64,000 nucleotides of DNA from Azospirillum sp. B510 (GTDB lineage Bacteria; Pseudomonadota; Alphaproteobacteria; Azospirillales; Azospirillaceae), in the NCBI RefSeq assembly GCF_000010725.1, contig NC_013854.1, positions 2,571,001 through 2,635,000 on the forward strand. The letters run 5' to 3'. Each line of letters begins with the position of its first letter. The first letter of the stretch is position 1. This document shows positions 3,124 to 15,769 of the stretch, piece by piece. Made by a program: the position numbers and the translations under genes. Under the pieces are notes generated by a model. It was given only the letters and a program-made list of their open reading frames with translations, had not been told where the DNA came from and made no database searches.

Positions 3124-4794
3124 ATGGGCAAGATACTGGTTGTCGACGACGAGCGGGACGTCCAGACGCTGCTCCTGCAACGTTTCCGCCGCGCCGTCCG
3201 CGCCGGCGAGTTGGAATTCCTGTTCGCCCATGATGGGCGGGAGGCGCTGGAGACCCTGCGCGCCCAGCCCGACATCGACATGGTTCTGAGCGACATCAAC
3301 ATGCCCGGCATGGATGGGCTGACCCTGCTCGACCACCTGCCGCAGGTGAATTCGGACATCCGGGCGGTGATGGTGTCGGCCTATGGCGACCTGAGCAACG
3401 TGCGCGCGGCGATGAACCGTGGCGCCTTCGACTTCATCATCAAGCCCATCGACTTCGCCGACCTGGAAGCCACCATCCACAAGACGCTGGAAGCCTGCCG
3501 CGCCATGCGCCGCCTGCGCGACGCGCTACAGGAAACCCGGACGGCGGAGGCGGCATCGCGTGCCCAGGCCGCCCGCATGCGCCGGGTTCTGGACGGCAGC
3601 CCGATCGGCGTGGCGATCCTCACCGAAGCCGGAGAGCTGGTCTATTGCAACCAGCGCTGCACCGACCTGTTCGGTTTGCCCGCGGACAGGCTTCAGCACC
3701 AATGCGCCCCCACCTTGTTCCGCCATGTCCAGGACCGGCTGCCGGAACGGGAAGCCGAAACCGTGACCCTGTCGGCGTCGGACGAGATCCATTATGTGCG
3801 CGAGGACGGGCGCACGGTGTGGATGGCGATGTCGGTCGACCGCACCAGTTACGAGGATCAGCCGGTCTTCATCGTCTGGCTCTACGACATCACCGAACGA
3901 AAGGTCCAGGCCGAGGCCCTGCGCAGCGCCAAGGACTCGGCGGAACAGGCGCTGGCCGATCTGGAACGCATGCAGGCCGACCTGATCCGGGCGGAAAAAA
4001 TGGCGGTGATCGCTCAACTGATCGCCGCGGTCGCGCACGAGATCAATACCCCCGTCGGCACCGCGCTGACCGCCGCCACCCATCTGCAAACCGCATCGGA
4101 AGCGATCATCCTGACCTTCAAGGGTGGCCAGCTGCGCAAGAGGGATTTCCAGGATTACGTCGCCACCGCCAGCGAGGTGTCGACCTTGCTGGTCGCCAAC
4201 ATCGAACGCGCCGCGGCCCTGATCCAGAGCCTGAAGCTGGTGACCGAGGGCAAGGCCAGCTCGCCGCGCAGCCGTTTCGACCTGCGCGACTATCTGTCCG
4301 ACATCGTGCTGGCGGTGCAGGTGCAGCCGGCGGCATCCAGACACCAGCTGGAGCTGGAGTGTCCGCATGGGCTTGCGCTCGACACCTATCCCGGCGCGCT
4401 GACCGAAGTGCTTCTGGCGCTGTTGACCAACGCCTTCGCCCACGCCTTCGAGACGGAGCCGACGACCGCCGCCATCGGCTCGCAAGACGCCGCGGAAGAC
4501 CTCGCACCCCTCGTCCGCCGCCCCGGTGGCAAGGTGACGGTTTCGGTGCGGATGCTGCCTGACGACCGGGTGGAACTGCGCGTTTCCGACAACGGACGCG
4601 GCATCCCGCCAGCCATCCTGCCGCGGCTGTTCCAGCCCTTCACCACCACGCGCCGCGGCACCGGCAGCATGGGGCTCGGGCTCTATGCCGTGTTCAATCT
4701 GGTCACCGGGAAGCTCGGCGGCGAGGTCGATGTCGAAAGCACTGTCGGAAGCGGAACCAGCATGATCCTGCGGCTGCCGCTGGACGCCCCCTGA
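3124..4794 (+). CDS. Receiver-PAS-histidine kinase hybrid
   Basis: A 556-residue cytoplasmic signalling protein. The N-terminal receiver (residues 1-120) has VVDDERD and the phospho-acceptor Asp57 in LSDINMPG. A PAS domain (about 145-265) ends in the DITERK hallmark and is followed by a coiled coil. The kinase dimerisation motif is AHEINTPVG with His305. The C-terminal ATPase has NGRGIPP and GSMGLGLY. The layout (receiver first, kinase last, no membrane segment) suggests it relays a phosphoryl group from another kinase, possibly the one at 1974-2855. A start at ATG 3124 gives a complete receiver and sits 6 bp behind a GGAAGG-like ribosome site. Its receiver is clearly paralogous to the one at 6578-6973. 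Confidence 0.88.
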   Translation: MGKILVVDDERDVQTLLLQRFRRAVRAGELEFLFAHDGREALETLRAQPDIDMVLSDINMPGMDGLTLLDHLPQVNSDIRAVMVSAYGDLSNVRAAMNRGAFDFIIKPIDFADLEATIHKTLEACRAMRRLRDALQETRTAEAASRAQAARMRRVLDGSPIGVAILTEAGELVYCNQRCTDLFGLPADRLQHQCAPTLFRHVQDRLPEREAETVTLSASDEIHYVREDGRTVWMAMSVDRTSYEDQPVFIVWLYDITERKVQAEALRSAKDSAEQALADLERMQADLIRAEKMAVIAQLIAAVAHEINTPVGTALTAATHLQTASEAIILTFKGGQLRKRDFQDYVATASEVSTLLVANIERAAALIQSLKLVTEGKASSPRSRFDLRDYLSDIVLAVQVQPAASRHQLELECPHGLALDTYPGALTEVLLALLTNAFAHAFETEPTTAAIGSQDAAEDLAPLVRRPGGKVTVSVRMLPDDRVELRVSDNGRGIPPAILPRLFQPFTTTRRGTGSMGLGLYAVFNLVTGKLGGEVDVESTVGSGTSMILRLPLDAP

Positions 4795-4886
4795 CCCCCT
4801 CTGTCATGGTGGTGCCGCACCCGGTTCCGACCGAGGGCGCATACGGATGGCTGTGACTTCGGGCTGGTTGAGCGGGAACAGACAGG

Positions 4887-6581
4887 ATGGACAAGCTTAC
4901 CGAGCAGCCGATTCCTCCCCCCCAGTCGGTCGAAGAGGCGCTGGAGAACGCCCACCGTTACAGGGCGTCGCTGATCGAGACGATGCCCGGGCTGATCGTC
5001 CATCGTGGCGGCCGCGTGCTCTACTGCAACACCGCGCTGGCCAATCTTCTCGGCTATCCGACGACGCGCGAAATCTCCGCCCTGACCCATGTGCTGTCCC
5101 TCGTGCCGGAGGATGCGCTCCAGGCCGAGGAGAAGGCCTATGCCCGTTGCCTCAACGGCGAATTGCGGCTGGAGGCCAGGCGGGTGAAGCGATATCGCGC
5201 CGACTCCAGCCTGCAATGGTTCGACCAGTTGCTGGAAACGGTGGATTGGGTCGACGGCCCGGCGATCATGGAGATGCTGACCCGGATGCGACACCATCCG
5301 GCGAACGCCGATCTGCCGCGCCAGGGGCAATTGCTTCAGGCCGCCATCGACGCCATGCCCAACGGCGTGTTGATGCTGGACAAGGATTTGCACCTGGAGG
5401 GCGCGAACAGCGAATATTTCCGGCTGTGGGATTATCCGCCCGGCATGTTCCCACCAGGCACCCCCGTCTCGGCAACCCTGGATTACAATCACAGCCGAGG
5501 CGACTATGGCGACGTCCCCCGGAAGGAGACGGTCGAAGCGCTCAGCGCCAGGCTGCGCGTCAAGGGGGTCGCCAACGCCGAGCGGGAAGTGCCGAACGGC
5601 CGCATCCTGGACATCAGGACCGCCCCTCGGGCCGATGGCGGCTACGTCATCACCCAATATGACATCACGGACAGGAAGCGGATCGAGACCGAGCTGCGCG
5701 AAGCCAAGGAGCGAGCCGAGTCGATCTTGCAGGAATTGCGGGAAACGCAACAGCAATTGATCGTTCAGGAAAAAATGGCCTCTCTCGGCCAACTGACCGC
5801 CGGCATTGCCCATGAACTGAAAAATCCACTGAATTTCGTCAATAATTTCTCGGATCTGAGCGAGGAGCTTTTCGACGAGCTTTTGGAGTTCCTCAACCCG
5901 GTCAAGAGCGGGCTTCCCTCCGACGCGGTGGAGGAAGTCGATTCCCTCATCAAGGACTTGCAGAGCAATCTGCGCAAGATCGGCGAGCATGGCCGACGGG
6001 CCGACCGCATCGTCAAGAGCATGCTGGATCATTCGCGCGGCGGCGGTGGAGAATGGCAATCGGTCGATCTGAATGGCTTGGTCGAGGAAGCACTCGTACT
6101 GTCCTATCAGGCGAGCAGAACACAGGATTCCGGTTTCAACGCCACGCTTGAGCGCAAGCTTGATCCGGAACTGGGCGAACTGGACTTGGTGCCGCAGGAT
6201 ATTTCCCGCGTCCTCGTCAATTTGTTCACCAATGCTTTCTATGCGCTGCGGCGCCGCCAGATCGTCGGCGCCGACCCCGCCTATCGCCCCACCCTGACCG
6301 TCACCACGAGAGGCTGTAACGACGATGTAGAAATTAGAATAACCGACAATGGGACCGGTGTCCCACCCGCTTTGATCGAGAAGATATTCACCCCTTTCTT
6401 CACCACGAAGCCTGCCGGCGAGGGAACCGGTTTGGGCCTTTCCCTCAGTTATGACATCGTGGTACACCAACACAGGGGTCGTTTTGACGTGTCAAGCGTC
6501 GAAAACGAGTTCAGCGAGTTTGTGATTTCGCTGCCACGCAAAGCGGTGGCTGTCGATTCAGGGGAGCGGCGGAAAAGATGA
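4887..6581 (+). CDS. Double-PAS histidine kinase
   Basis: A 564-residue soluble kinase. The first PAS-like domain covers about residues 25-125, the second (PAS_7 type, with MPNGVLMLDKDLHLEGAN) about 150-270. A coiled coil with ELRETQQQLIVQEKMA precedes the dimerisation motif AHELKNPLNFV, with the phospho-acceptor at His309. The ATPase domain shows NLFTNAFYAL, DNGTGVPP and GTGLGLSLS. The C-terminal half has noticeably lower GC than the neighbouring genes. Its stop overlaps the start of the downstream receiver (ATGA), so the two are a coupled sensor/regulator pair. The stimulus cannot be deduced. Confidence 0.88.
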   Translation: MDKLTEQPIPPPQSVEEALENAHRYRASLIETMPGLIVHRGGRVLYCNTALANLLGYPTTREISALTHVLSLVPEDALQAEEKAYARCLNGELRLEARRVKRYRADSSLQWFDQLLETVDWVDGPAIMEMLTRMRHHPANADLPRQGQLLQAAIDAMPNGVLMLDKDLHLEGANSEYFRLWDYPPGMFPPGTPVSATLDYNHSRGDYGDVPRKETVEALSARLRVKGVANAEREVPNGRILDIRTAPRADGGYVITQYDITDRKRIETELREAKERAESILQELRETQQQLIVQEKMASLGQLTAGIAHELKNPLNFVNNFSDLSEELFDELLEFLNPVKSGLPSDAVEEVDSLIKDLQSNLRKIGEHGRRADRIVKSMLDHSRGGGGEWQSVDLNGLVEEALVLSYQASRTQDSGFNATLERKLDPELGELDLVPQDISRVLVNLFTNAFYALRRRQIVGADPAYRPTLTVTTRGCNDDVEIRITDNGTGVPPALIEKIFTPFFTTKPAGEGTGLGLSLSYDIVVHQHRGRFDVSSVENEFSEFVISLPRKAVAVDSGERRKR

Positions 6582-6973
6582 CATTGGGGATTCTCGTTGT
6601 AGACGATGAGCCGGATGTCGAAGATCTGTTTCGTCAACGTTTCCGTGCGGAACTGCGCCGGGGTGAGCTGGCGCTGCATTTCGCGGTCTCGGCGGAAGAG
6701 GCGCTGCGCAACCTGGAAGAAGGCCTCCAACCCGAAGCGGTGCTCGTTCTCAGCGATATCAACATGCCCGGGATGAGCGGGCTCGAGTTCCTTGAACATG
6801 TGAAGGCCAGCCTGCCACAGGTTCCCGTGATCGTGGTGACGGCCTACGGGGACGCGGAAAACCGCCGCCGCGCCCTCGACATCGGGGCGACCGAACTGGT
6901 CACCAAGCCCGTGGATTTCGTTGCCCTGAAGAAACTGGTCAGCAGCGTGATCGAACAGAAGACGGCGGCTTGA
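6578..6973 (+). CDS. Single-domain response regulator
   Basis: A stand-alone receiver of 131 residues with no output domain. The acidic pocket is VVDDEPD and the phospho-acceptor is Asp60 in LSDINMPGMSG; the conserved Thr/Lys switch is VTAYGD and TKPVDF. It overlaps the upstream kinase by 4 bp (ATGA) and is presumably its phosphorylation target. It closely resembles the receiver at the N-terminus of 3124-4794, including the RxGEL insertion after helix 1. The module therefore appears to have arisen by duplication. It could act as a phosphate sink, a relay to the hybrid kinase, or a CheY-like effector. Confidence 0.88.
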   Translation: MTLGILVVDDEPDVEDLFRQRFRAELRRGELALHFAVSAEEALRNLEEGLQPEAVLVLSDINMPGMSGLEFLEHVKASLPQVPVIVVTAYGDAENRRRALDIGATELVTKPVDFVALKKLVSSVIEQKTAA

Positions 6974-7004: not shown

Positions 7005-8165
7005 TCATCCTTGCGGGCCGCAGATCACGGCGAGATCCCGCAACTCGGCCGCCTCGCCGGAGCAGCATGAACAAGCGGGATCGACCGGCACCGCAAGCTC
7101 GTTGAACTCGCCGCGCAAGCCGTCATACATCAGCAGACGCCCGGTCAGCGGATCGCCAAGGTCGAGCAGAAGCTTGATCGTCTCCGCGGCCATGATGGTT
7201 CCGATGACGCCGGGCAGAACCCCCAGCACCCCCGCCTCGGCACAGGACGGCGCATATTCGGACGGCGGCGGTTCCGGAAACAGGCAGCGGTAACAGGGGC
7301 GTTCGCCCGGAGCGGCCCCGCCGAACACCGAAACCTGGCCCTCGAACCGGAAAATCGCCCCGTAAACGACGGGGATGCGCAGACGCAGGCAAGCATCGTT
7401 CACCAGATAGCGCGTGGGCAGATTGTCCGACCCGTCGACCACCACATCATGCCCCGCCAGCAGATCGAGCACATTGGCGGCTTCGACGCGCAGCTTCCGC
7501 GTCTCCACCGTGATGGTCGGATTGAGATCGAGCAGAGCCGCGCGTCCGCTCTCCACCTTATCCTGGCCAAGCCGGCTTTCGGCATGAAGGATCTGGCGTT
7601 GCAGGTTGCTGCGCTCCACCCGGTCATCATCGATCAGGGTCAGACGCCCGACGCCGGCGGCGGCGAGATACAGGGCGATCGGCGACCCCAACCCACCGGC
7701 GCCGATCAAGGCGACGCTGCTGTTCAACAGACGATGCTGTCCGGCTTCCCCGACCTCCGGCATGGTCAGATGACGGCGGTAGCGCTCGCGCTGGCCGGCA
7801 TCCAGACGGGGCGGCACCTCAACCGGCAGACCGGCGGCCTTCCAGGCGGAAAAACCGCCGCGAACGGAGCGGACATCGCCATACCCCATCCGCAACAGAT
7901 CTTCCGCCGCCAGCAGGGACCGCGTTCCCCCGGCGCACATCAGCAGAAGCGGGCTCGCCGGATCGGGCACGCCGTCCTCGATGCGCAGCTCCAGAAAACC
8001 GCGCGGCACGCGCAGCGCCCCCGCCGGGGCGCCCGCCGCCGTTTCCTCGTCATCGCGGACATCGACGAGAATGGCGCCGCCGCGCTGCATGGCGAGCGCC
8101 TCCGAAACCGCGATCTCCGGGATCCGGGCACGCAACTCGCTCAGCCGCCGATCCTTCAAGCTCAT
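7005..8165 (-). CDS. Rhodanese-ThiF/MoeB fusion (sulfur-carrier adenylyltransferase/sulfurtransferase)
   Basis: A 386-residue two-domain enzyme. A rhodanese domain (about residues 15-110) carries the persulfide loop MCAGGTRS. An E1-like ThiF/MoeB domain (about 120-380) carries the ATP-binding GAGGLGSP, the cysteine of the SCAEAGV segment, and zinc cysteines CYRC and CSCC. MoeZ/MOCS3 enzymes have these domains in the opposite order (E1 first), so this arrangement is unusual. The family adenylates the C-terminal glycine of a MoaD/ThiS protein and converts it to a thiocarboxylate. The start chosen is ATG 8165, 8 nt behind GAGGAG; an upstream TTG at 8180 would overlap the carrier stop. As last gene of the cluster it very likely serves the adjacent carrier. 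Confidence 0.85.
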   Translation of the reverse strand: MSLKDRRLSELRARIPEIAVSEALAMQRGGAILVDVRDDEETAAGAPAGALRVPRGFLELRIEDGVPDPASPLLLMCAGGTRSLLAAEDLLRMGYGDVRSVRGGFSAWKAAGLPVEVPPRLDAGQRERYRRHLTMPEVGEAGQHRLLNSSVALIGAGGLGSPIALYLAAAGVGRLTLIDDDRVERSNLQRQILHAESRLGQDKVESGRAALLDLNPTITVETRKLRVEAANVLDLLAGHDVVVDGSDNLPTRYLVNDACLRLRIPVVYGAIFRFEGQVSVFGGAAPGERPCYRCLFPEPPPSEYAPSCAEAGVLGVLPGVIGTIMAAETIKLLLDLGDPLTGRLLMYDGLRGEFNELAVPVDPACSCCSGEAAELRDLAVICGPQG

Positions 8166-8176
8166 GCCACGGCTCC

Positions 8177-8455
8177 TCAACCGCCCGCCAGGGCGACCAT
8201 CAGCGTCAGGGTGGCACCGCCCGGCAAGGCCGCATCGAGCCCGCCCAGCCTGCGCACATCGTCACGGCCCAGATAGACATTCACGAAACGCCGCAATTCA
8301 CCATCGGTCGTGAACAGGCGATCCCGGAAAATATCCTGGCCGGCGGTGAGCGCCAACAGCGCCTCGCGCACCGTACCACCGGACACCGTCACCTGATCCC
8401 GCCCGCCAACGAAACCGCGCAGCGGGGTCGGCAGCCGGATTGTCACGTCGCTCAC
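8177..8455 (-). CDS. MoaD/ThiS-like sulfur-carrier protein
   Basis: A 92-residue ubiquitin-fold protein ending in ALAGG, the diglycine tail needed for adenylation and thiocarboxylate formation. Family features are the N-terminal strand (VTIRLPTPLRGFV), the GGTVREALLAL helix, and the VNVYLGRDDVRRLGG...LPGGATLTLM end. It starts at GTG 8455, overlapping the tfuA-like stop (GTGA), and sits immediately before the E1-rhodanese gene. Tight coupling to TfuA/YcaO rather than to molybdopterin or thiamin genes suggests it donates sulfur for peptide modification. That role is inferred; a housekeeping MoaD function cannot be excluded from sequence alone. Confidence 0.82.
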   Translation of the reverse strand: MSDVTIRLPTPLRGFVGGRDQVTVSGGTVREALLALTAGQDIFRDRLFTTDGELRRFVNVYLGRDDVRRLGGLDAALPGGATLTLMVALAGG

Positions 8456-9861
8456 GCCTGCATCTCCTCTTCGCACCCGGCCCGGTCGTCCGAAACCGCC
8501 TGCAACGCCTGCTCGGCTTCCGCGGCGAGTTGGCGGACAAGGTCGCGCACCTTCTTCGTCCGCACCAGATCGATCCTCAGATCGAGAATATCCTTGAACC
8601 CATATTCATAAGCCCAGACATCGGGTGGCGCATCGATGCGGCAGGAGGTGTGGGCGAGATGATCGAGGATCAACTCCTCGGTCGTTTCCTGCGACTGCTG
8701 GGCGGTGCCGCCGAAATGCAGCTCCGACACACGCTGCACGAAGGCGGCCTCCTCGGCTATCGCCTCATAGAGCCCACGCAAGCGCAGTTCGTTGAGGACC
8801 GGCCTGGTCGTCCGCGCAAGGAAGCGCCGCGAGATCATCCAGTGCCGCATCGCCCGCTCGGTGGCGAGTTCGGCCATCAGGGCGTCGAACTCCTCTCCCG
8901 TCAGATCATTGCTGCGGCACCATCGCAACAGCGCCTCCGGCGACTCGATGCCGCGCCCCATGCAGAATCGCCGCGCCTCGGCGGTGACCGCTTCGGCATC
9001 CACCTTGACGCCGACGGCTTCGGCCAATTGGCCGGCCAGCAGCCGGCCGAGCGCCGCATTGTTGATCTCGGCGAAATCCGGTCGATGCAGGGCGGCATGC
9101 AGAGCGATATCCGACAGCGGAACGGCGTTGCCGCCATGCTCCACCCGGCGGTCCCGCTCATACAGCACGTCGAAATAATGCGACGCGTTGAAGGCGAAGG
9201 GTGCCGGACGCGGCGGGGTGATCAGACTGGCGAGGTGGTTGAGCAGCGCCTCCGCATCGCGGCGCTTCTGGTCGACCGCGCCCGCGTCGAGAAAGCGTTC
9301 AAGACGCTCGATCTCCGCATCGGTCAGCGCGGCTTCGGCCCAAATCCGATCCCGCGTCCGTTCAGGGAAATAGCAGCGCTTGGCGGCGGTGACCACGCGG
9401 TCGCGCAGATCACCGTCGATCGCTCCGGCGGCCACCGCCGCCTCCAGGCTGGCACGCAAATTCACCAGCGGCTCGGACAAGGGGAGATAGCCGTCTTCGG
9501 GACCGGCATGGGCCAGGGCGACCTCGTCGTCTCCGGTCAGACGGCCGTCGATATACTGCCGCGCCACCTCACCGATCGGAATCATGCCGAAGCCATGGCA
9601 CTCCGCGGCCCTCAGGGCTCCCATGCTCGATGCGCCATAGACCGCGATGCCCCTGGAGAGCGCGAACAGGATCTCCTTGTGCCAGACGGACAGGGACTGG
9701 CCGAAGACACCGTCGATCAGGGCGATCACATCCGGCTGGTGGATGGTCATCGCGCTCAGGATATCGGCCTGGGCGGCCGGAGGCAGATACACCGCATCCG
9801 ACAGGATCGTCCTGGCATCCTCGACGGCCATCGTCGGACCAAGGAAAACACAGATCTTCAT
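8452..9861 (-). CDS. tfuA-like: TfuA-like protein (YcaO partner for thioamide formation)
   Basis: A 469-residue protein whose N-terminal 150 residues are a clear TfuA domain: FLGPTM, IDGVFGQSLSVWHKEIL, GASSMGALRAAE and DDEVALAHAGPEDGY. The remaining 300 residues are a helical C-terminal extension common in long TfuA proteins, with no catalytic motif I recognise. TfuA proteins partner YcaO enzymes in trifolitoxin-type and thioviridamide-type pathways and in methanogen McrA thioglycine formation. They are thought to help deliver sulfur. Start ATG 9861 (MKICVFLG) is set by homology; the frame stays open upstream into ycaO. It lies 26 bp after the YcaO gene and overlaps the sulfur-carrier start. 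Confidence 0.88.
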   Translation of the reverse strand: MKICVFLGPTMAVEDARTILSDAVYLPPAAQADILSAMTIHQPDVIALIDGVFGQSLSVWHKEILFALSRGIAVYGASSMGALRAAECHGFGMIPIGEVARQYIDGRLTGDDEVALAHAGPEDGYLPLSEPLVNLRASLEAAVAAGAIDGDLRDRVVTAAKRCYFPERTRDRIWAEAALTDAEIERLERFLDAGAVDQKRRDAEALLNHLASLITPPRPAPFAFNASHYFDVLYERDRRVEHGGNAVPLSDIALHAALHRPDFAEINNAALGRLLAGQLAEAVGVKVDAEAVTAEARRFCMGRGIESPEALLRWCRSNDLTGEEFDALMAELATERAMRHWMISRRFLARTTRPVLNELRLRGLYEAIAEEAAFVQRVSELHFGGTAQQSQETTEELILDHLAHTSCRIDAPPDVWAYEYGFKDILDLRIDLVRTKKVRDLVRQLAAEAEQALQAVSDDRAGCEEEMQA

Positions 9862-9887
9862 TCGTCCGCCCCCACCCGAAGCGCCCG

Positions 9888-11225
9888 TCACGCCACGCCT
9901 GCCCCGGCGGCCATCCGCGTCCTGACCATTTCGGTGAAGCCGTGCGCACGCGATCCGGCCGCGTAGAAATCGAAACGATAGCCCTCCAGGCCGGGAACCA
10001 GAACCCTGACCACCGGAATTCCCATCTCGGGCTGGGTCAGATCGAAGACCAGGACCTGCGACAGGCCCACCCGCTGCAACAGGCCGAGCAGGACGGTGAT
10101 GTCGCCCTCGAAGGTCGGCGTGGACAGGTCGGCATGCCGGCGCCCATCGACCGTTGCCGGCTGCGCCTCCAGCGCGGCGATTCCGGCGCTGCCATCGGCG
10201 TTCTGGTTGCGGATCATGTCCCTGCGGAAGAAATCGTCGCGGGAACCGGCGATCATCACCAGACGGGCCTGGACCGCCTCGGTCAGGGCGCGGCACATGG
10301 CGACGGCCGGCTCCAGATGGCTGCCGTAACCACGGCTCATTCCCATGTTCCGCACATCGCGATCGTAAACCATCGCCATGTAGCTGGGCAGGCCGAGATC
10401 ATTGGTGACGTCGAACAGCAGGGGGCGGACGCCCGCGGCCTCGAAACGGTTCAGCAGATCGCGGACCGTGGGATGATCGATGCTGGTCAGATCGACCCGC
10501 GGCGTCGGGATCTGGAGCTGGTCGCAGGCACTGCCCCAGCAGGACACCGCATCGCGCTCCATCACCTCGCACAGCCCGGAGACGACGGCCTCAAGAATGT
10601 GATTGCCGCTGGCCAGACCGTTGGTGCCGGCGGCGTAGAAGCTCCGCGGGCCGGGCCGGGCGCCGGGGACGCTGTGGAGACCGACCGCGGTCCAGGGCGC
10701 GGCGATGCGGCGGCCACCGATCAGATCCCATCCCCAGGTCCAATATTCCGGCCTGTCGGGCTGGAAGGCGCTGTCCTTGCTGCCCGGCATGCGGTCCAGC
10801 GGGATGCGCCCATCCTCGGGCAGATCGTTCCAGGCGGCCTCGACATGGGGCAGACGCATCGTCTCGGCGTGATAGCACTCGATCCCCTCCATCGCCGCCG
10901 ACACCGTCGCCGCCACCAGGCTGAAGCCCTTTCCAGCGCTTCCCGCCAGGGTCGAGCTGTTCGGGCGGTGCCCAAGAACGGTGTGGATACCGACACGATC
11001 CAGGCCGGTCACGTCCGCCAGCCTGGTGATGCCGCAGCGGGCCAAATGAGGGGTGATGCGGGCCAGTGTCTCTTCCGGGGTGGCCGTCCGGTGGGTGCCG
11101 GTAAAGAAACGCTTCGCCGCCGTGTATACACCGTCCCCCAACCTTATGCCGGCGGTTGGATGCGGCTGATTGTCAGGAAGAGGGGAGGCATGACCGGGCG
11201 TTGCCGGATTTGTCGAAGCTCGCAT
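9888..11225 (-). CDS. ycaO-like: YcaO-domain ATP-dependent peptide-modifying enzyme
   Basis: A 445-residue YcaO protein. YcaO enzymes activate backbone amides with ATP and then form azolines, amidines or, with TfuA, thioamides. The Mg-ATP ligand signatures are present: AAMEGIECYHAE, the second acidic helix LCEVMERDAV, and the ALTEAVQARLVMIAGSRDD segment. The C-terminus (VPGLEGYRFDFY) lacks the proline-rich PxPxP tail of azoline-forming YcaOs, and no ocin-ThiF partner is fused. Both points fit TfuA-type thioamidation. Start ATG 11225 has a GGAAG site 8 nt upstream. A strong hairpin separates it from the precursor gene. Confidence 0.9.
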   Translation of the reverse strand: MRASTNPATPGHASPLPDNQPHPTAGIRLGDGVYTAAKRFFTGTHRTATPEETLARITPHLARCGITRLADVTGLDRVGIHTVLGHRPNSSTLAGSAGKGFSLVAATVSAAMEGIECYHAETMRLPHVEAAWNDLPEDGRIPLDRMPGSKDSAFQPDRPEYWTWGWDLIGGRRIAAPWTAVGLHSVPGARPGPRSFYAAGTNGLASGNHILEAVVSGLCEVMERDAVSCWGSACDQLQIPTPRVDLTSIDHPTVRDLLNRFEAAGVRPLLFDVTNDLGLPSYMAMVYDRDVRNMGMSRGYGSHLEPAVAMCRALTEAVQARLVMIAGSRDDFFRRDMIRNQNADGSAGIAALEAQPATVDGRRHADLSTPTFEGDITVLLGLLQRVGLSQVLVFDLTQPEMGIPVVRVLVPGLEGYRFDFYAAGSRAHGFTEMVRTRMAAGAGVA

Positions 11226-11250
11226 CTACAGCTTCCGGAAATTTGCGAAG

Positions 11251-11276
11251 GGGCCGGCTTCGTGGGAAGCCGGCCC
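11251..11276. promoter_or_regulatory. GC-rich hairpin between precursor and ycaO genes
   Basis: A perfect 11-bp inverted repeat (11251-11261 with 11266-11276) has a 4-nt loop and lies in the 60-bp gap between the repetitive precursor stop and the ycaO start. No U-tract follows on the minus strand. It could be a partial terminator or an mRNA-stabilising stem that keeps precursor mRNA in excess over enzyme mRNA, as is common in RiPP operons. That function is inferred. Confidence 0.55.
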
Positions 11277-11285
11277 TGCCACATC

Positions 11286-12443
11286 TCAGGCGATGGTGTC
11301 CTTGCCGGCGGTGTCCTTGCCGGCATCATCCGCCGTCGCGGCTTGCGTCTCCGTCGACGGCGTCACCTGAGCCGGCGCGGAGGCCGGAACCCCGAACAGC
11401 GACGACAGGCTGGCGACCGCGGCGGGAACCGAGAACAGCGATGCCGCCTGGGCGGTCGCCGGAACGGCGAACAGCGACGACAGGCTGGCGACGGCCGCCG
11501 GATGCGCCTGCAACGACGCGCAAGCCGCAGGCGCGGACGGCGCCGACGTGGCGGCGGGCGCCGTGAACAGCGACGCCGTCTGGGCGGTCGCCGGAACGGC
11601 GAACAGCGACGACAGGCTGGCGACGGCCGCCGGATGCGCCTGCAACGACGCGCAAGCCGCAGGCGCGGACGGCGCCGACGTGGCGGCGGGCGCCGTGAAC
11701 AGCGACGCCGTCTGGGCGGTCGCCGGAACGGCGAACAGCGACGACAGGCTGGCGACGGCCGCCGGATGCGCCTGCAACGACGCGCAAGCCGCAGGCGCGG
11801 ACGGCGCCGACGTGGCGGCGGGCGCCGTGAACAGCGACGCCGTCTGGGCGGTCGCCGGAACGGCGAACAGCGACGACAGGCTGGCGACGGCCGCCGGATG
11901 CGCCTGCAACGACGCGCAAGCCGCAGGCGCGGACGGCGCCGACGTGGCGGCGGGCGCCGTGAACAGCGACGCCGCCTGGGCGGTCGCCGGAACGGCGAAC
12001 AGCGACGACAGGCTGGCGACAGCCGCCGGATGCGCCTGCAACGACGCGCAAGCCGCAGGCGCGGACGGCGCCGACGTGGCGGCGGGCGCCGTGAACAGCG
12101 ACGCCGCCTGGGCGATCGCCGGAACGGCGAACAGCGACGACAGGCTGGCGACAGCCGCCGGATGCGCCTGGAGGGACACGCAGGCCGCAGGGGCCGCCGC
12201 CACCGAGGAAGCGGCCGTCGCGATGGATTCAGCCGCGAGGCCGGAATTCACCTCGCCGCCCTCCGCCAGGGCGCCGAAAGCTTGGGCGGCAACCGAGCGC
12301 ACATCATCCGCGGTGATGTCGCCGAAGCCGTTCTGAGCGAGAATCGCTTGCTTCCCGGCGGCGTCCGCACCGTTAAGCTGGTCTCGGAAGCCACCATCGG
12401 TAGCAAGGCGCTTAATGAGGTCGAGCGCCTTCTCGTTGGCCAT
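11286..12443 (-). CDS. RiPP precursor: Nif11-type leader with six-fold 44-residue repetitive core
   Basis: A 385-residue protein. Residues 5-55 match the Nif11-like leader family (ALDLIKRLATDGGFR, then ILAQNGFGDIT), followed by ALAEGG at 58-63, a plausible double-glycine processing site. From about residue 85 the sequence is a tandem repeat of 44 residues. Each unit begins after a cysteine (Cys88, 132, 176, 220, 264, 308) and contains SLQAHP, SLSSLFAVPA and ASLFTAPA. The sixth copy decays into a short C-terminal tail with duplicated AGKDT. It is rich in Ala, Ser, Pro and Leu-Phe pairs. AGGAGG lies 7 nt before ATG 12443. Directly upstream of ycaO-tfuA, it is the best substrate candidate. A structural protein is the alternative, but the Nif11 leader argues against it. 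Confidence 0.85.
   Translation of the reverse strand: MANEKALDLIKRLATDGGFRDQLNGADAAGKQAILAQNGFGDITADDVRSVAAQAFGALAEGGEVNSGLAAESIATAASSVAAAPAACVSLQAHPAAVASLSSLFAVPAIAQAASLFTAPAATSAPSAPAACASLQAHPAAVASLSSLFAVPATAQAASLFTAPAATSAPSAPAACASLQAHPAAVASLSSLFAVPATAQTASLFTAPAATSAPSAPAACASLQAHPAAVASLSSLFAVPATAQTASLFTAPAATSAPSAPAACASLQAHPAAVASLSSLFAVPATAQTASLFTAPAATSAPSAPAACASLQAHPAAVASLSSLFAVPATAQAASLFSVPAAVASLSSLFGVPASAPAQVTPSTETQAATADDAGKDTAGKDTIA
11433..12179 (-). repeat. 132-bp in-frame tandem repeat (five full copies plus a partial)
   Basis: Copies begin every 132 bp, judged from the sequence CAACGACGCG at 11511, 11643, 11775, 11907 and 12039 on the plus strand, with a diverged copy at 12171. Units are nearly identical even at third codon positions, differing at few sites, such as Ala/Thr in the AQ(A/T)AS segment. 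This points to recent expansion or homogenisation by recombination. They encode the 44-residue core units of the precursor. Confidence 0.92.
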
Positions 12444-12809
12444 TTTGCCCCTCCTACACCGTCTGCAAATGCGATTGGGTCGGAATCATATGACTGACCG
12501 GACCAATAACATAGGCAATCAGGAAAAATGCTACCTAAAAATTGTATCAAACGGCATTTAAGCTGATTATTTAATTTCCATTACAATGCCGGCTGGCCAG
12601 CCGGAAAGAGTTCTGGAAAGACGTCGGCACGGAAATTCATGCGTTGAAGGATTCACCGAAATATGGGAAGTCCTTCAACGCATGAAATCATAAAACCCAA
12701 CGATCCAATCGCTTCCTCAAAGAGGAATGATCGAATATCTCAGAGAATATGTGGGGCGTAAGGATTGGGGTTTCACATCTTCTCCCTCAATTCCGCCCCC
12801 TGCCCCTCA
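12444..12809. other. Intergenic region between the two precursor genes
   Basis: This 366-bp gap is markedly AT-rich around 12480-12590 in otherwise very GC-rich DNA. It presumably holds the promoter of the 44-residue-repeat precursor and its enzymes. I see no ORF with coding character. It contains the long hairpin at 12636-12686. No clear -35/-10 pair could be assigned with confidence. Confidence 0.5.
12636..12686. promoter_or_regulatory. Perfect 16-bp stem-loop downstream of the first precursor gene
   Basis: Arms 12636-12651 and 12671-12686 are perfect reverse complements around a 19-nt loop. On the minus strand the stem is followed by only three Ts, so it is a weak candidate intrinsic terminator for the 12810-13172 gene. 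It may instead be an mRNA 3'-end stabiliser or a read-through attenuator for the rest of the cluster. Confidence 0.55.
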
Positions 12810-13172
12810 TCAGGTGGGTGAGGAGTATGCAGCCGAACCAAAAGCTGACGAGCCATATGCCGCAGACCCAAAACCGGCCGCCGCGAAGCCAGCTGACGCG
12901 AAGCCAGCCGCCGCAAAATAGGCCTCGACGGACTGACCGGACGACTCGCCAGTACCGCTGGCGGCGCTCGGAGAGGTCGCCGCAAGGTCGCCGCGGCCGG
13001 CAACCGCGGATGGCTGCGCCATCGCCCGAAGGTCCGCCGCCTCAACCTTGGCAAAGCCGTGACGGGCAAGCGTGTCGCGCTTCGCCTTCATGTCCCCGCC
13101 GCCAAGAACCGCACGAAAGGATGAGTCGGTAGCAAGGCGCTTGATAAGATCAACCGCGGTCATCGTAGCCAT
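12810..13172 (-). CDS. RiPP precursor: Nif11-type leader with pentad aromatic repeat core
   Basis: A 120-residue protein. Residues 5-50 form a leader paralogous to the other precursor (VDLIKRLATDSSFR here, LDLIKRLATDGGFR there; then LARHGF). A Ser/Gly/Ala-rich linker follows. The core (85-120) has an aromatic residue exactly every five positions: Phe86, 91, 96, 101, Tyr106, Phe111, Tyr116, with only Ala, Gly and Ser between. There is no cysteine anywhere. Start ATG 13172 has GGAGG 7 nt upstream; upstream in-frame codons lack a ribosome site. It is the first RiPP gene of the cluster. The core resembles a pentapeptide-repeat rhythm but lacks the Asp/Asn of that family. Confidence 0.8.
   Translation of the reverse strand: MATMTAVDLIKRLATDSSFRAVLGGGDMKAKRDTLARHGFAKVEAADLRAMAQPSAVAGRGDLAATSPSAASGTGESSGQSVEAYFAAAGFASAGFAAAGFGSAAYGSSAFGSAAYSSPT
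12813..12917 (-). repeat. 15-bp coding repeat giving a 5-residue periodic core
   Basis: Seven consecutive pentads of the form aromatic-small-small-small-small are encoded at the 3' end of the precursor gene. The DNA repeat is degenerate, unlike the near-identical 132-bp repeats of the neighbouring precursor, so amino-acid periodicity seems to be what is conserved. Confidence 0.8.
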
Positions 13173-13322
13173 ACGCGATCCTCCACCATCGAGAGAGCCA
13201 ATGGGACACCACCCATGCGATCCCATCATATTTGCTATGCGAATATAGGATCAAGGGTATTGTTTCCATCAAAACAACCGATACGGATCCTGGTGACGGG
13301 CGATATGACACGGCGGAAGAGT

Positions 13323-13907
13323 CTAGCAGGCCGAAATTCGCGGGCGGGCGTACCAGCGTTCCCGGCTTTGCCGCCAGAATTCCGCCATCGGCTGGGCCAT
13401 CGGCTCGGGCAATGGCGCAAGACCGCTCAGGTGGCCGCCAAGACGCCGGGCAACCGCCTTGGATGCGAAATTCTGCGGATTGATGGTGTGCAGCACATCG
13501 TCCCAGCCAAGCGTTTCAAAGGCCCAATCGACGGCGGCCGTCGCGGCTTCCACGGCATAGCCACGCCCCCAATGACTGCGCATGATCGCCCAACCGACCT
13601 CGTTTCCGGGCCAGCCTTCCGGAACCCAGGGACCGACCCGACCGACCCAAAGGCCTGTGGACTTCTCGATCACGGAAAACATGGAAAAGCCTTGGATCAT
13701 CCAGGCTCCGGCCACCGCGACGAACCCGCGCCAGGCGATGGGGCGGGGCTGGACGCCGCCGATATGCCTCGTCACCTCCTCATCGGCCATCATGGCGGCC
13801 CAAGGCTCGAAATCTTCGGCCCTGGTCGGACGCAGGAGCAACCGACGGGTCTCCAGGATCGGCTCCGCGACCGACCGAATGTTCTGCTGAACCCTTGACA
13901 ACACCAT
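13323..13907 (-). CDS. GNAT-family N-acetyltransferase (RimJ/RimL type)
   Basis: A 194-residue acetyltransferase of the RimJ/RimL group, which transfers acetyl from acetyl-CoA to N-terminal or side-chain amines. Visible features are ETRRLLLRPTRAEDFEPW at the N-terminus, the acetyl-CoA-binding segment SHWGRGYAVEAATAAVDWAF, and the closing NFASKAVARRLGG helix. Start ATG 13907 (MVLSRVQQ) has a GGAAGGG site; the longer upstream frame is not needed. It lies on the same strand 150 bp upstream of the first RiPP precursor, with an AT-rich gap between. It may be unrelated to the cluster or a tailoring enzyme; the spacing favours a separate promoter. Confidence 0.82.
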   Translation of the reverse strand: MVLSRVQQNIRSVAEPILETRRLLLRPTRAEDFEPWAAMMADEEVTRHIGGVQPRPIAWRGFVAVAGAWMIQGFSMFSVIEKSTGLWVGRVGPWVPEGWPGNEVGWAIMRSHWGRGYAVEAATAAVDWAFETLGWDDVLHTINPQNFASKAVARRLGGHLSGLAPLPEPMAQPMAEFWRQSRERWYARPRISAC

Positions 13908-14152
13908 CGCCCTTCCACGTTCGGATGCGCCGTACGCGCCTACCGCACTGCAAACGGATGGACCCCGATATACCGGGATAATGACGGATCGCCTATCGTG
14001 GAAAAATGCTCCATCGTGTGGCGAGCGACATAATGGGGAATACCCAGCCATTCCCCTCGCGAAAAGGGAGACTCCGTCGGGAAATGCCCGCCCCTTCCCG
14101 GGAAGGGCGTATCGTCCACCCGTTTCGTCCGATGCCGTTTAGCGCGAATTCC

Positions 14153-14156
14153 CTAG
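14153..14156. repeat. Target-site duplication, left copy (CTAG)
   Basis: CTAG directly abuts the left inverted repeat of the IS element and is repeated at 15770-15773. A 4-bp duplication is typical of IS1380-family transposition. Confidence 0.7.
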
Positions 14157-15769
14157 CCGCCTTTATTCACCAGGGTGGCGAGCGGTCTGGTCGCCGCGTT
14201 GAGATGATCAACGTTGGGCTGTATGGGCGCGCGTCGTCGGCCGCCGCGCTGACGGCGGCGTGACGGTGTCGGAGTTGGTGGTGGAGGGGATTGGGTGACG
14301 GCTGGGGCACGCTGCCCCGGTGCTCAGCAGATGAGCCGGGGCATGCGGCCGAGGGCGAGGTGGATGATCGCCTGATCAGGCGCGCTGGTCGGCAGGTGCA
14401 CCTTGATCTGCGTCTTCATCTCCACGATACGCGCGGCGGTCTTCACCAAGCGCAGCCGCAAGGTGTCGAATTGCACCGTGCGCCAGCGGGAGCGTTTCGG
14501 CATCAGCGAGCGCAGGCTCCACAGCAGCCAGTACGCCCCGGCGTGCAGGAACAGGCGGAACTGGTTGGCCGTCGCCTTGGTGCAGGAGGTCCGGTCTGCG
14601 GCAAGGTGGGATTTCCAGGCTTTTATATGATTTTCCGCCTGTCCCCTCGCGCAATACAGGCCGGCATACAGCCAGCGACCCGTGCCGTGGCGTAGGTTGG
14701 TGACGATGAAGCGGCTGTCGGTGCCCTGGTCTCCTGCCTCGACGCGCGCGACGATGCGGCGGACCCGGCTCCAGGTGCTGGCCCCGTCATAGAATTCCTT
14801 GAAGCGGCGCACCTTGTCGGCTCCGGGCATGGCCTGGAAGCGCGCCGCGGTGCTGGCCTCCAGCGTGGTGACGTGACGGCGCAGTGTGCTGCTGGTCGGC
14901 AGACCGAGCACGTAGTCGAGCCCCTCCGCCTCGCACCAGTCCAGCACCTCCGGGCAGGCGTAATGGCCGTCGGCGCGCAGCAGGATCTCGGTCTTGGGCC
15001 AGTTTGCCCGAATGGCGCGGAGCAGGCGACGCAGGAAGGTCCGGATCTCCGTCCCCTTGGGCCGCTTGGCTGGGCGCAGCACAGCGGTGACAAAGCGGCC
15101 GTTGCCGTCGAAGACAACGATGGGCTGGAAGCCGTACTCGTCGTAATGGGCGTTGAACAGGCGCAACTGCTGACCGCCATGCACCGTGTCGAAGGTGTCG
15201 TCTACATCCAGCACGATGCGCTTGGGCACCTGGCGAAAGGACGCGCAGTAGAGATCGACCATGGCTCGGCCCATGCGCAGCAGTGCGCGGGTATCCGGCA
15301 GGTTCTCCAGGCGCGAGATGGTGGCTTGCGAGCAAAGGTCACGCTCGGACGGCAGGCGTTCCAGGGCCATCTTGAACAGCGGGTCGGAGCGTAGGCTGCC
15401 GGCGTCGTTGCCGTCCTCGTAGCCCGCCGCGATGGCCAGCAGGCGAAAGCCGATGATGTCGGCCAGCGAATGCACGGTGCGCGTTGGATCGCGCGGGTCC
15501 TCAATACAGGCGGCCAGCCGATCGGCAATCCGCAGCCGCTTCGCCACCTCCCGCAGCACCAGCAGCCCGCCATCGGAGGACAGGCGGCCGCCATCAAAGC
15601 GCCCGATCACCGGCTTTCCAGCAACGGGTGACAGGCCGGGCAGCGGCAGGGTATGATCAACCATGGCGGGTGGGCGCTCCGGAAACGGCAGGAGTTGGCG
15701 TCAGCACCCAAATCCTACGGCCGCTCAACGGATGCCGCTACACCCGCCAACCCTCATGAATTTTCCCGG
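14157..15769 (-). mobile_element. IS1380-family insertion sequence, apparently intact
   Basis: A 1613-bp element bounded by imperfect inverted repeats of about 20 bp (14157-14176 and the complement of 15750-15769, 13 of 20 positions matching, with shared CCG, ATTCA and AGGGT blocks). CTAG flanks both ends. It encodes one full-length transposase on the minus strand. Length, single ORF and 4-bp duplication all fit IS1380. It separates the GNAT/RiPP region from the genes leading to glyQS. No passenger gene is present. Confidence 0.85.
14324..15664 (-). CDS. IS1380-family DDE transposase
   Basis: A 446-residue transposase. The N-terminus shows the family signature DGGRLSSDGGLLVLREV. Catalytic acidic residues are recognisable in VLDVDDTFDTVHG, in RADGHYACPEV and in the RGQAENHIKAWK helix. 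The frame is uninterrupted and of full family length, so the copy may be active. The start ATG 15664 lies about 105 bp inside the element's right end. Confidence 0.92.
   Translation of the reverse strand: MVDHTLPLPGLSPVAGKPVIGRFDGGRLSSDGGLLVLREVAKRLRIADRLAACIEDPRDPTRTVHSLADIIGFRLLAIAAGYEDGNDAGSLRSDPLFKMALERLPSERDLCSQATISRLENLPDTRALLRMGRAMVDLYCASFRQVPKRIVLDVDDTFDTVHGGQQLRLFNAHYDEYGFQPIVVFDGNGRFVTAVLRPAKRPKGTEIRTFLRRLLRAIRANWPKTEILLRADGHYACPEVLDWCEAEGLDYVLGLPTSSTLRRHVTTLEASTAARFQAMPGADKVRRFKEFYDGASTWSRVRRIVARVEAGDQGTDSRFIVTNLRHGTGRWLYAGLYCARGQAENHIKAWKSHLAADRTSCTKATANQFRLFLHAGAYWLLWSLRSLMPKRSRWRTVQFDTLRLRLVKTAARIVEMKTQIKVHLPTSAPDQAIIHLALGRMPRLIC

Follow-up and report, generated by a model that had tools for sequence, protein, structure and literature searches.

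A conserved Azospirillum YcaO-TfuA operon with a dedicated carrier and activating enzyme, a probable sulfur-delivery relay for thioamide formation

Among the closest described relatives of the locus reported here is the archaeal McrA thioglycine system, a YcaO-TfuA pair with a ThiS-type carrier that acts on an enzyme subunit and sometimes has sulfur genes nearby (thiF, sufS, moaD, moaE and moeB near ycaO-tfuA in methanogens, according to PMC5589413). For archaeal TfuA, hydrolysis of thiocarboxylated ThiS has been reported, as cited in passages of PMC13063428, PMC8939145 and PMC8153245, the last of which (2021) left to be determined whether the TfuA of bacterial ribosomally synthesized and post-translationally modified peptide (RiPP) pathways uses thiocarboxylated ThiS. 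The substrates of TfuA-associated YcaOs are treated as unknown in the relevant section of PMC4603692. Here we describe an operon at 7005-13172 on the minus strand of a 64,000-nucleotide stretch of Azospirillum sp. B510 (NC_013854.1, positions 2,571,001 to 2,635,000; the window). In order, it encodes two Nif11-type precursors, YcaO, TfuA, a GG-ending CysO-like carrier and a rhodanese-ThiF activating enzyme (E1), which bears out the order of the six genes, all on one strand, given in a first-pass annotation of the sequence. Our assessment is that this operon quite probably forms thioamides in a RiPP pathway and brings along a relay of its own for sulfur delivery. It shares with the McrA system the YcaO-TfuA pair, the TfuA fold (6xp8) and the ThiS-type carrier, but the putative substrate is a leader-bearing repetitive peptide instead of an enzyme subunit, and the solved archaeal TfuA chain (217 residues) is without the C-terminal domain present in the window TfuA.

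Other described clusters resemble the operon in part. Like it, the thiovarsolin cluster of Streptomyces varsoviensis, as presented in the accessible text of PMC6511847, applies YcaO-TfuA to a repeated core (up to five repeats) and has no specific protease; unlike it, the cluster has a shorter repeat region and extra tailoring genes, and the seven genes given there as sufficient include neither carrier nor E1. According to the same text, ThiS-like proteins go with a set of actinobacterial TfuAs, those of 'Network 18', where a ThiS-like protein is encoded together with TfuA-YcaO as here; they are mentioned as a peptide network, with neither E1 nor core types described in that text. The modules of ThiS-like, rhodanese-E1 and JAB proteins surveyed in PMC1779556 include those for pyridine-2,6-dithiocarboxylic acid (PDTC) and quinolobactin (PdtH, PdtF, PdtG), natural-product clusters which, like the operon, have their own ThiS-like carrier and E1-rhodanese, there together with a JAB gene. 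Unlike the operon, they serve small-molecule thiocarboxylate siderophores and carry the rhodanese at the C-terminus of the E1 (N-terminus in the window E1), and the passages concerned name no YcaO or TfuA. Nif11-like precursors occur in TfuA clusters of Rhizobium, Ruegeria, Anabaena and others, with ThiS annotated in a figure legend (PMC8120280). These share the Nif11-like leader and TfuA-YcaO with our operon, but they have a conserved GG cleavage motif, whereas none was seen by eye in the aligned leaders of the window family, and a carrier/E1 relay is not described in the sections available. Parts of the arrangement are already published, since TfuA clusters have been described with ThiS-like proteins and with Nif11 precursors. 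The first-pass annotation knew of no characterised cluster with this exact gene set; its parts turn out to be in print, but our literature searches found no description combining a Nif11 leader, long repeats, a dedicated carrier/E1 and a TfuA whose tail resembles SurA. To that annotation we add the long Ala-rich repeat cores, the SurA/PpiC-like domain of TfuA and the relay modules in other lineages.

Searching 82 genomes of the order for TfuA, combined with protein comparison, yielded 22 further loci (L040-L061) with the same YcaO-TfuA-carrier order in 22 Azospirillum genomes. YcaO and TfuA are adjacent at all 23 loci, and an E1 follows the carrier at 20 of the 22 further ones. L047 stops at a contig edge, with its genome's E1 at the start of another contig, and L043 is the one further locus without E1. 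A carrier search added a 24th cluster genome (G029), in which no E1 was found within 14 kb. The ratio of nonsynonymous to synonymous substitution rates (dN/dS) in three pairwise comparisons was 0.11-0.22 for YcaO, TfuA, carrier and E1, i.e., purifying selection. Because the gene order recurs at 22 further loci and the genes are under such selection, the arrangement is more than chance.

The carrier and E1 are dedicated to the cluster and co-inherited with it. To guard against a circular, carrier-based definition, cluster genomes were called by a match to the TfuA extension alone among 45 genomes of the genus; 24 matched (64-100% identity), a set identical to the one including G029. All 24 have a carrier match above 140 bits, whereas among the other 21 the sole match is a weak one in G018 (39.5 bits); second carrier matches of 22 bits were seen in G021 and G031. 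A second E1 is present in 22 of the 24 cluster genomes and in 0 of the 21 others. Fisher tests for co-occurrence with the long TfuA, uncorrected for shared ancestry, gave 2.6e-13 for the carrier and 7e-11 for E1. Among 385 genomes of the class, a carrier search picked up nine genomes outside the genus in addition to two within it. All 45 genomes of the genus keep a separate MoeB-like E1, which shares 44-53% identity with that of the window over the ThiF part. Adjacent pairs of MoaD with MoaE and of ThiS with ThiG, as well as a MoeB, are encoded elsewhere in the window's genome; hence the relay is dedicated. A housekeeping role of the two genes in molybdopterin or thiamine synthesis was ruled out on the same ground, since MoeB, MoaD and ThiS are encoded elsewhere. 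The first-pass annotation had staked its reading on carrier and E1 not being the organism's only molybdopterin genes, and they are not. In the E1 tree (36 rows), a branch with support 100/98 sets off the 21 cluster E1s, and a second branch (99/98) does so for nine Azospirillum MoeBs. The E1s encoded beside TfuA at L085 and L089, in two other Alphaproteobacteria, group with the cluster E1s (99/94). This tree is midpoint-rooted, some of its rows are long-branched, and long branches meet between the MoeBs and the cluster E1s.

The carrier scores just under the cut-off of the ThiS family PF02597 (5.1e-4, 21.0 bits, cut-off 22.5). Its identity is nevertheless secure because it matches CysO (PDB 3dwg, E 3.6e-14; the ThiS/MoaD protein 4n6e follows at 2.2e-13) and ends in GG, within a C-terminal ALAGG, at 23 of 23 loci. 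By sequence it is CysO-like and not a close MoaD; the GG end of the earlier label, a MoaD/ThiS-like carrier, stands, and the protein shows similarity to the beta-grasp family. E1 combines ThiF (4.4e-78) and rhodanese (1.5e-11) domains in Pfam and, among the best 25 of the 38 NCBIfam families matched, exceeds the cut-off of NF006444 (574 against 449 bits). Rhodanese-MoeB-type E1s are expected to show GAGGLG, a catalytic Cys, CxxC and a rhodanese CxxGxRS loop; the rhodanese CAGG[TA]RS, GAGGLG and SCAEAG are intact in all 21 cluster E1s examined. A conjugation role, in which carrier and E1 would form a ubiquitin-like (SAMP1-type) pair tagging TfuA, YcaO or the precursors without releasing sulfur, could draw on the carrier's top NCBIfam match, SAMP1 (5.3e-10), and on an E1 match to the SAMP-activating UbaA model, both below cut-off. 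We nonetheless regard it as highly improbable: the nearest solved relatives of the carrier are CysO and the ThiS/MoaD protein, E1 carries a fused rhodanese domain, and a JAMM gene occurs at two loci outside the genus (L118 and L154, below), with none seen in the Azospirillum operon.

We found 24 leader-bearing precursors at 14 of the 23 loci, and at every one of these 14 the leaders lie upstream of YcaO. Eight of the remaining nine loci have Ala-rich repeat frames interrupted by a contig end or a gap of Ns; the ninth, L047, has no such frame in its remaining 242 bp. Across the family, 23 of 27 leaders match the Nif11 model PF07862 (best 1.9e-5) and 21 of 27 match TIGR03798 (best 1.2e-8), both at E <= 10. 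For the window's own precursors the Nif11-leader label is less secure than first given: precursor 2 has a leader that reaches 17.1 bits with PF07862 (cut-off 23.8) and 16.4 with TIGR03798 (cut-off 32.3), and at full length neither precursor has a Nif11 model listed at E <= 1 in Pfam or NCBIfam. Below its cut-off, a model of the IniB N-terminal domain also matches the window leader at 12264-12443 and, in all, 13 of the 27 leaders (best 1.1e-4). An ESIA.AA motif follows the leader in all 14 long-type precursors and in none of the 10 upstream-type ones. The cores are 29-445 residues long and consist of 41% Ala, 16% (15.6%) Ser, 9% Pro, 5.4% Thr and 0.2% Cys, with about 3.5% charged residues (5,472 residues in 23 cores, the frame-changing L045 precursor being left out). 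Arrays were detected by Tandem Repeats Finder (TRF) in 22 of the 24 precursors, with best periods of 27-228 bp, all multiples of three, which vary between species. Of the repetitive cores claimed in the first-pass annotation, TRF bears out that of precursor 2; precursor 1 gave no array. In the precursor at L045:9865-10044, the reading frame shifts within the repeat that follows, from a frameshift or an assembly error.

For both YcaO and TfuA, the best names are NCBIfam models for McrA thioamidation, and both proteins stay under the equivalog cut-offs (219.7 against 365 bits for YcaO, 200 against 235.2 for TfuA). As judged from these scores, they are related to the McrA thioglycine pair but do not have the same function. 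The family matches of YcaO bear on an alternative in which it makes azolines at core Ser, Thr and Cys while carrier and E1 serve, e.g., cysteine or cofactor sulfur supply. YcaO does match SagD as well (1.4e-36), and Ser and Thr are abundant in the cores (15.6% and 5.4% of the residues counted), but SagD scores lower, at 126.2 bits against 219.7 (5.9e-65) for the thioamidation model methan_mark_1, and Cys, at 0.2%, is nearly missing from the cores. Furthermore, a TfuA partner is present, the ThiF protein retains its E1 and rhodanese motifs, and among the genes annotated at 7005-15664 no flavin mononucleotide (FMN) dehydrogenase and no partner of the RiPP recognition element (RRE) type, whether cyclodehydratase, E1-like or ocin-ThiF, was seen, with 25 of 38 NCBIfam families listed for the ThiF protein, although no dedicated RRE search was made. 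Azoline formation is thus quite unlikely in our view.

The AlphaFold2 model of TfuA, built from 46 sequences, has a mean predicted local distance difference test score (pLDDT) of 91.6. Residues 1 to about 217 match the archaeal TfuA 6xp8 (Z 26.3, root-mean-square deviation 2.2 over 212 residues, 35% identity); the other matches in whole-TfuA fold searches were mostly common Rossmann-like or receiver-like folds. Twenty-three columns are invariant in the 46-row alignment, and among them are a single Ser, S79, and a single Lys, K199 (numbering from ATG 9861). These two residues are consistent with the Ser-Lys pair that Liu et al. (2021) are reported to have described in archaeal TfuA. The C-terminal ~248 residues have a predicted fold of their own (pLDDT 93.1), for which the top rows of fold searches were mostly SurA/PrsA-type chaperones, none strong (Foldseek best E 0.35; VIA-align Z <= 7.3). 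TIGR04500, a PpiC-related peptide maturation model, matches 23 of 45 TfuA relatives (best 6.5e-14) and SurA_N_3 matches six (best 9.1e-5); the window's own extension reaches 8.4e-4 with TIGR04500 (18.7 bits, cut-off 180), with no SurA_N_3 match reported for it. From the model and these family matches, this is probably a substrate-holding domain.

We infer every chemical step of the route, as well as the modified sites, core cleavage and the role of the product. The rhodanese domain would accept sulfane sulfur in the form of a persulfide, and the carrier, its C-terminal Gly-Gly adenylated by the ThiF domain, would become a thiocarboxylate. TfuA, with Ser79/Lys199 as a candidate pair, would bind and hydrolyse this thiocarboxylate and pass sulfide to YcaO, which with ATP would activate backbone amides in the cores of the leader-bearing precursors and swap O for S. 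The SurA-like tail may allow TfuA to keep hold of the long, unstructured core. That a carrier thiocarboxylate would feed backbone amides agrees, by analogy, with the published archaeal TfuA work as far as it is set out in the texts available (PMC13063428, PMC8153245, PMC8939145).

Several observations weigh against this reading. E1 is lacking in two of the 24 cluster genomes (G029 and the L043 genome) and is therefore not strictly needed in cis. Near two additional TfuA-YcaO pairs of the window's genome, L062 (G000:C5) and L063 (G000:C2), neither carrier nor E1 was detected. In the wider count, for which 50 of 80 TfuA loci were scanned, several of them on short contigs, a ThiS-family gene is present at four of 50 loci (L085, L090, L118 and L154). 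For that count 68 ThiS-family matches were chosen by eye and taken as real if their open translation ended in GG; a coordinate check of the remaining matches placed one more within a locus (L111), and it is not openly translatable. These two pairs and the four in 50 mean that the dedicated relay is not general, and a role for it as a general TfuA companion was ruled out. Of 25 cores (23 full and 2 partial, without the L045 precursor), 12 show a hydrophobic-x(0-3)-Pro-Ala motif more often than expected and 13 do not; the motif was accordingly dropped as a universal core target, and none shared by all cores was found. Lastly, no protease or exporter was seen among the genes annotated at 7005-15664.

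This last absence, together with cores of up to 445 residues as compared with at most five short repeats in the thiovarsolin precursor family (PMC6511847, in the portion cited above), would also suit structural or storage polymers with sparse or no thioamidation, beside a relay that is itself real. Since leaders are conserved while cores vary between species, and since leaders lie upstream of YcaO wherever they were found (14/14), we consider such polymers distinctly improbable. An extension of the favoured thioamide reading has the relay and the TfuA with its SurA-like domain processively thioamidating long, nearly uncharged Ala/Pro/Ser repeats that stay polymers, the repeat unit being rewritten between species. 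We hold this extension to be unlikely; if true, the product would be a genetically encoded thioamide polymer, with a metal-binding or cell-envelope role, and not a small peptide.

Carrier/E1 modules were found near five other TfuA-YcaO pairs (L085, L090, L118, L154 and L208). In Glaciecola (L118:6891-8764) and Bowmanella (L154:6819-8755), the carrier is fused to rhodanese-ThiF directly upstream of YcaO-TfuA, and a Prok-JAB (JAMM) gene stands just before the fusion (2e-20 and 1.3e-18, respectively), which suggests that the polyprotein may be cut after its internal GG by the JAMM protease. Carrier-ThiF fusions also lie beside JAB-like genes in six other genomes (L199-L204), with no YcaO or TfuA within the short loci read; the fusion thus looks like a general module that may have been recruited to TfuA-YcaO. 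L208:4157-8152 (G542) has, in order on one strand, carrier, ThiF-rhodanese (rhodanese C-terminal), YcaO and TfuA, with a second YcaO-like gene upstream (11368-12774, 1.7e-9). The order at L085 is YcaO-YcaO-TfuA-carrier-E1; TfuA is separated from the carrier by a DUF4135 gene (11380-14265), lanthipeptide-dehydratase-like, and the opposite strand bears a TldD/PmbA gene (4829-6403). At L089 and L146 an E1 is beside TfuA, and carrier and ThiS-family searches found no carrier.

Such modules near some other TfuA-YcaO pairs suggest that pathways of this type have a selectable component in their sulfur supply. In this soil genus, carrier, activating enzyme, TfuA, YcaO and substrate share one compact operon, and natural variants without E1 exist; therefore the whole route can be rebuilt and its parts removed singly, which makes the open sulfur-donor step of bacterial thioamide formation easy to test. 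The long repeat cores and the chaperone-like TfuA tail hint at thioamidation of unusually long substrates.

The features are listed in Table 1. The genes are tightly packed: ycaO and tfuA overlap by 4 bp if tfuA starts at GTG 9891, the carrier (GTG 8455) overlaps tfuA by 4 bp as first described, and E1 (ATG 8165) begins 11 bases past the carrier stop codon, close behind it as had been noted.

Table 1. Features of the operon and its upstream neighbour, in window coordinates
Feature	Coordinates	Strand	Evidence
Precursor 1, 120 aa: Nif11-type leader and short Ala/Gly/Ser core with Phe/Tyr	12810..13172	-	leader family alignment
Precursor 2, 385 aa: Nif11-type leader, ESIATAAS boundary, long repetitive core	11286..12443	-	leader family alignment
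Tandem repeat core of precursor 2: 132 bp = 44 aa, 5.9 copies, 97% match	11419..12191	-	TRF
YcaO, ATP-dependent amide-activating enzyme	9888..11225	-	Pfam PF02624 4.4e-76; NCBIfam methan_mark_1 5.9e-65
TfuA with C-terminal extension; start GTG 9891 or ATG 9861	8452..9891	-	PF07812 6.3e-42; model; 6xp8
TfuA C-terminal helical domain, SurA/PpiC chaperone-like (evidence weak from the window copy alone)	8452..9198	-	TIGR04500, SurA_N_3, fold matches
CysO/ThiS-type sulfur carrier, 92 aa, C-terminus VALAGG	8177..8455	-	CysO 3dwg match; PF02597 sub-threshold
Rhodanese-ThiF E1; ATG 8165, TTG 8180 also open	7005..8165	-	NCBIfam NF006444, motifs, tree
GNAT acetyltransferase upstream of the operon; present at 10/22 related loci	13323..13913	-	locus comparison

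Two histidine kinases and a response regulator, encoded at 3124-6973, run convergently to the operon; 20 of the 22 related loci also have the regulator and the kinase at 4887. A DDE transposase gene upstream of the operon (14324-15664) has a 100% identical copy of 446 residues at L063:14722-16059, close to one of this genome's additional TfuA-YcaO pairs.

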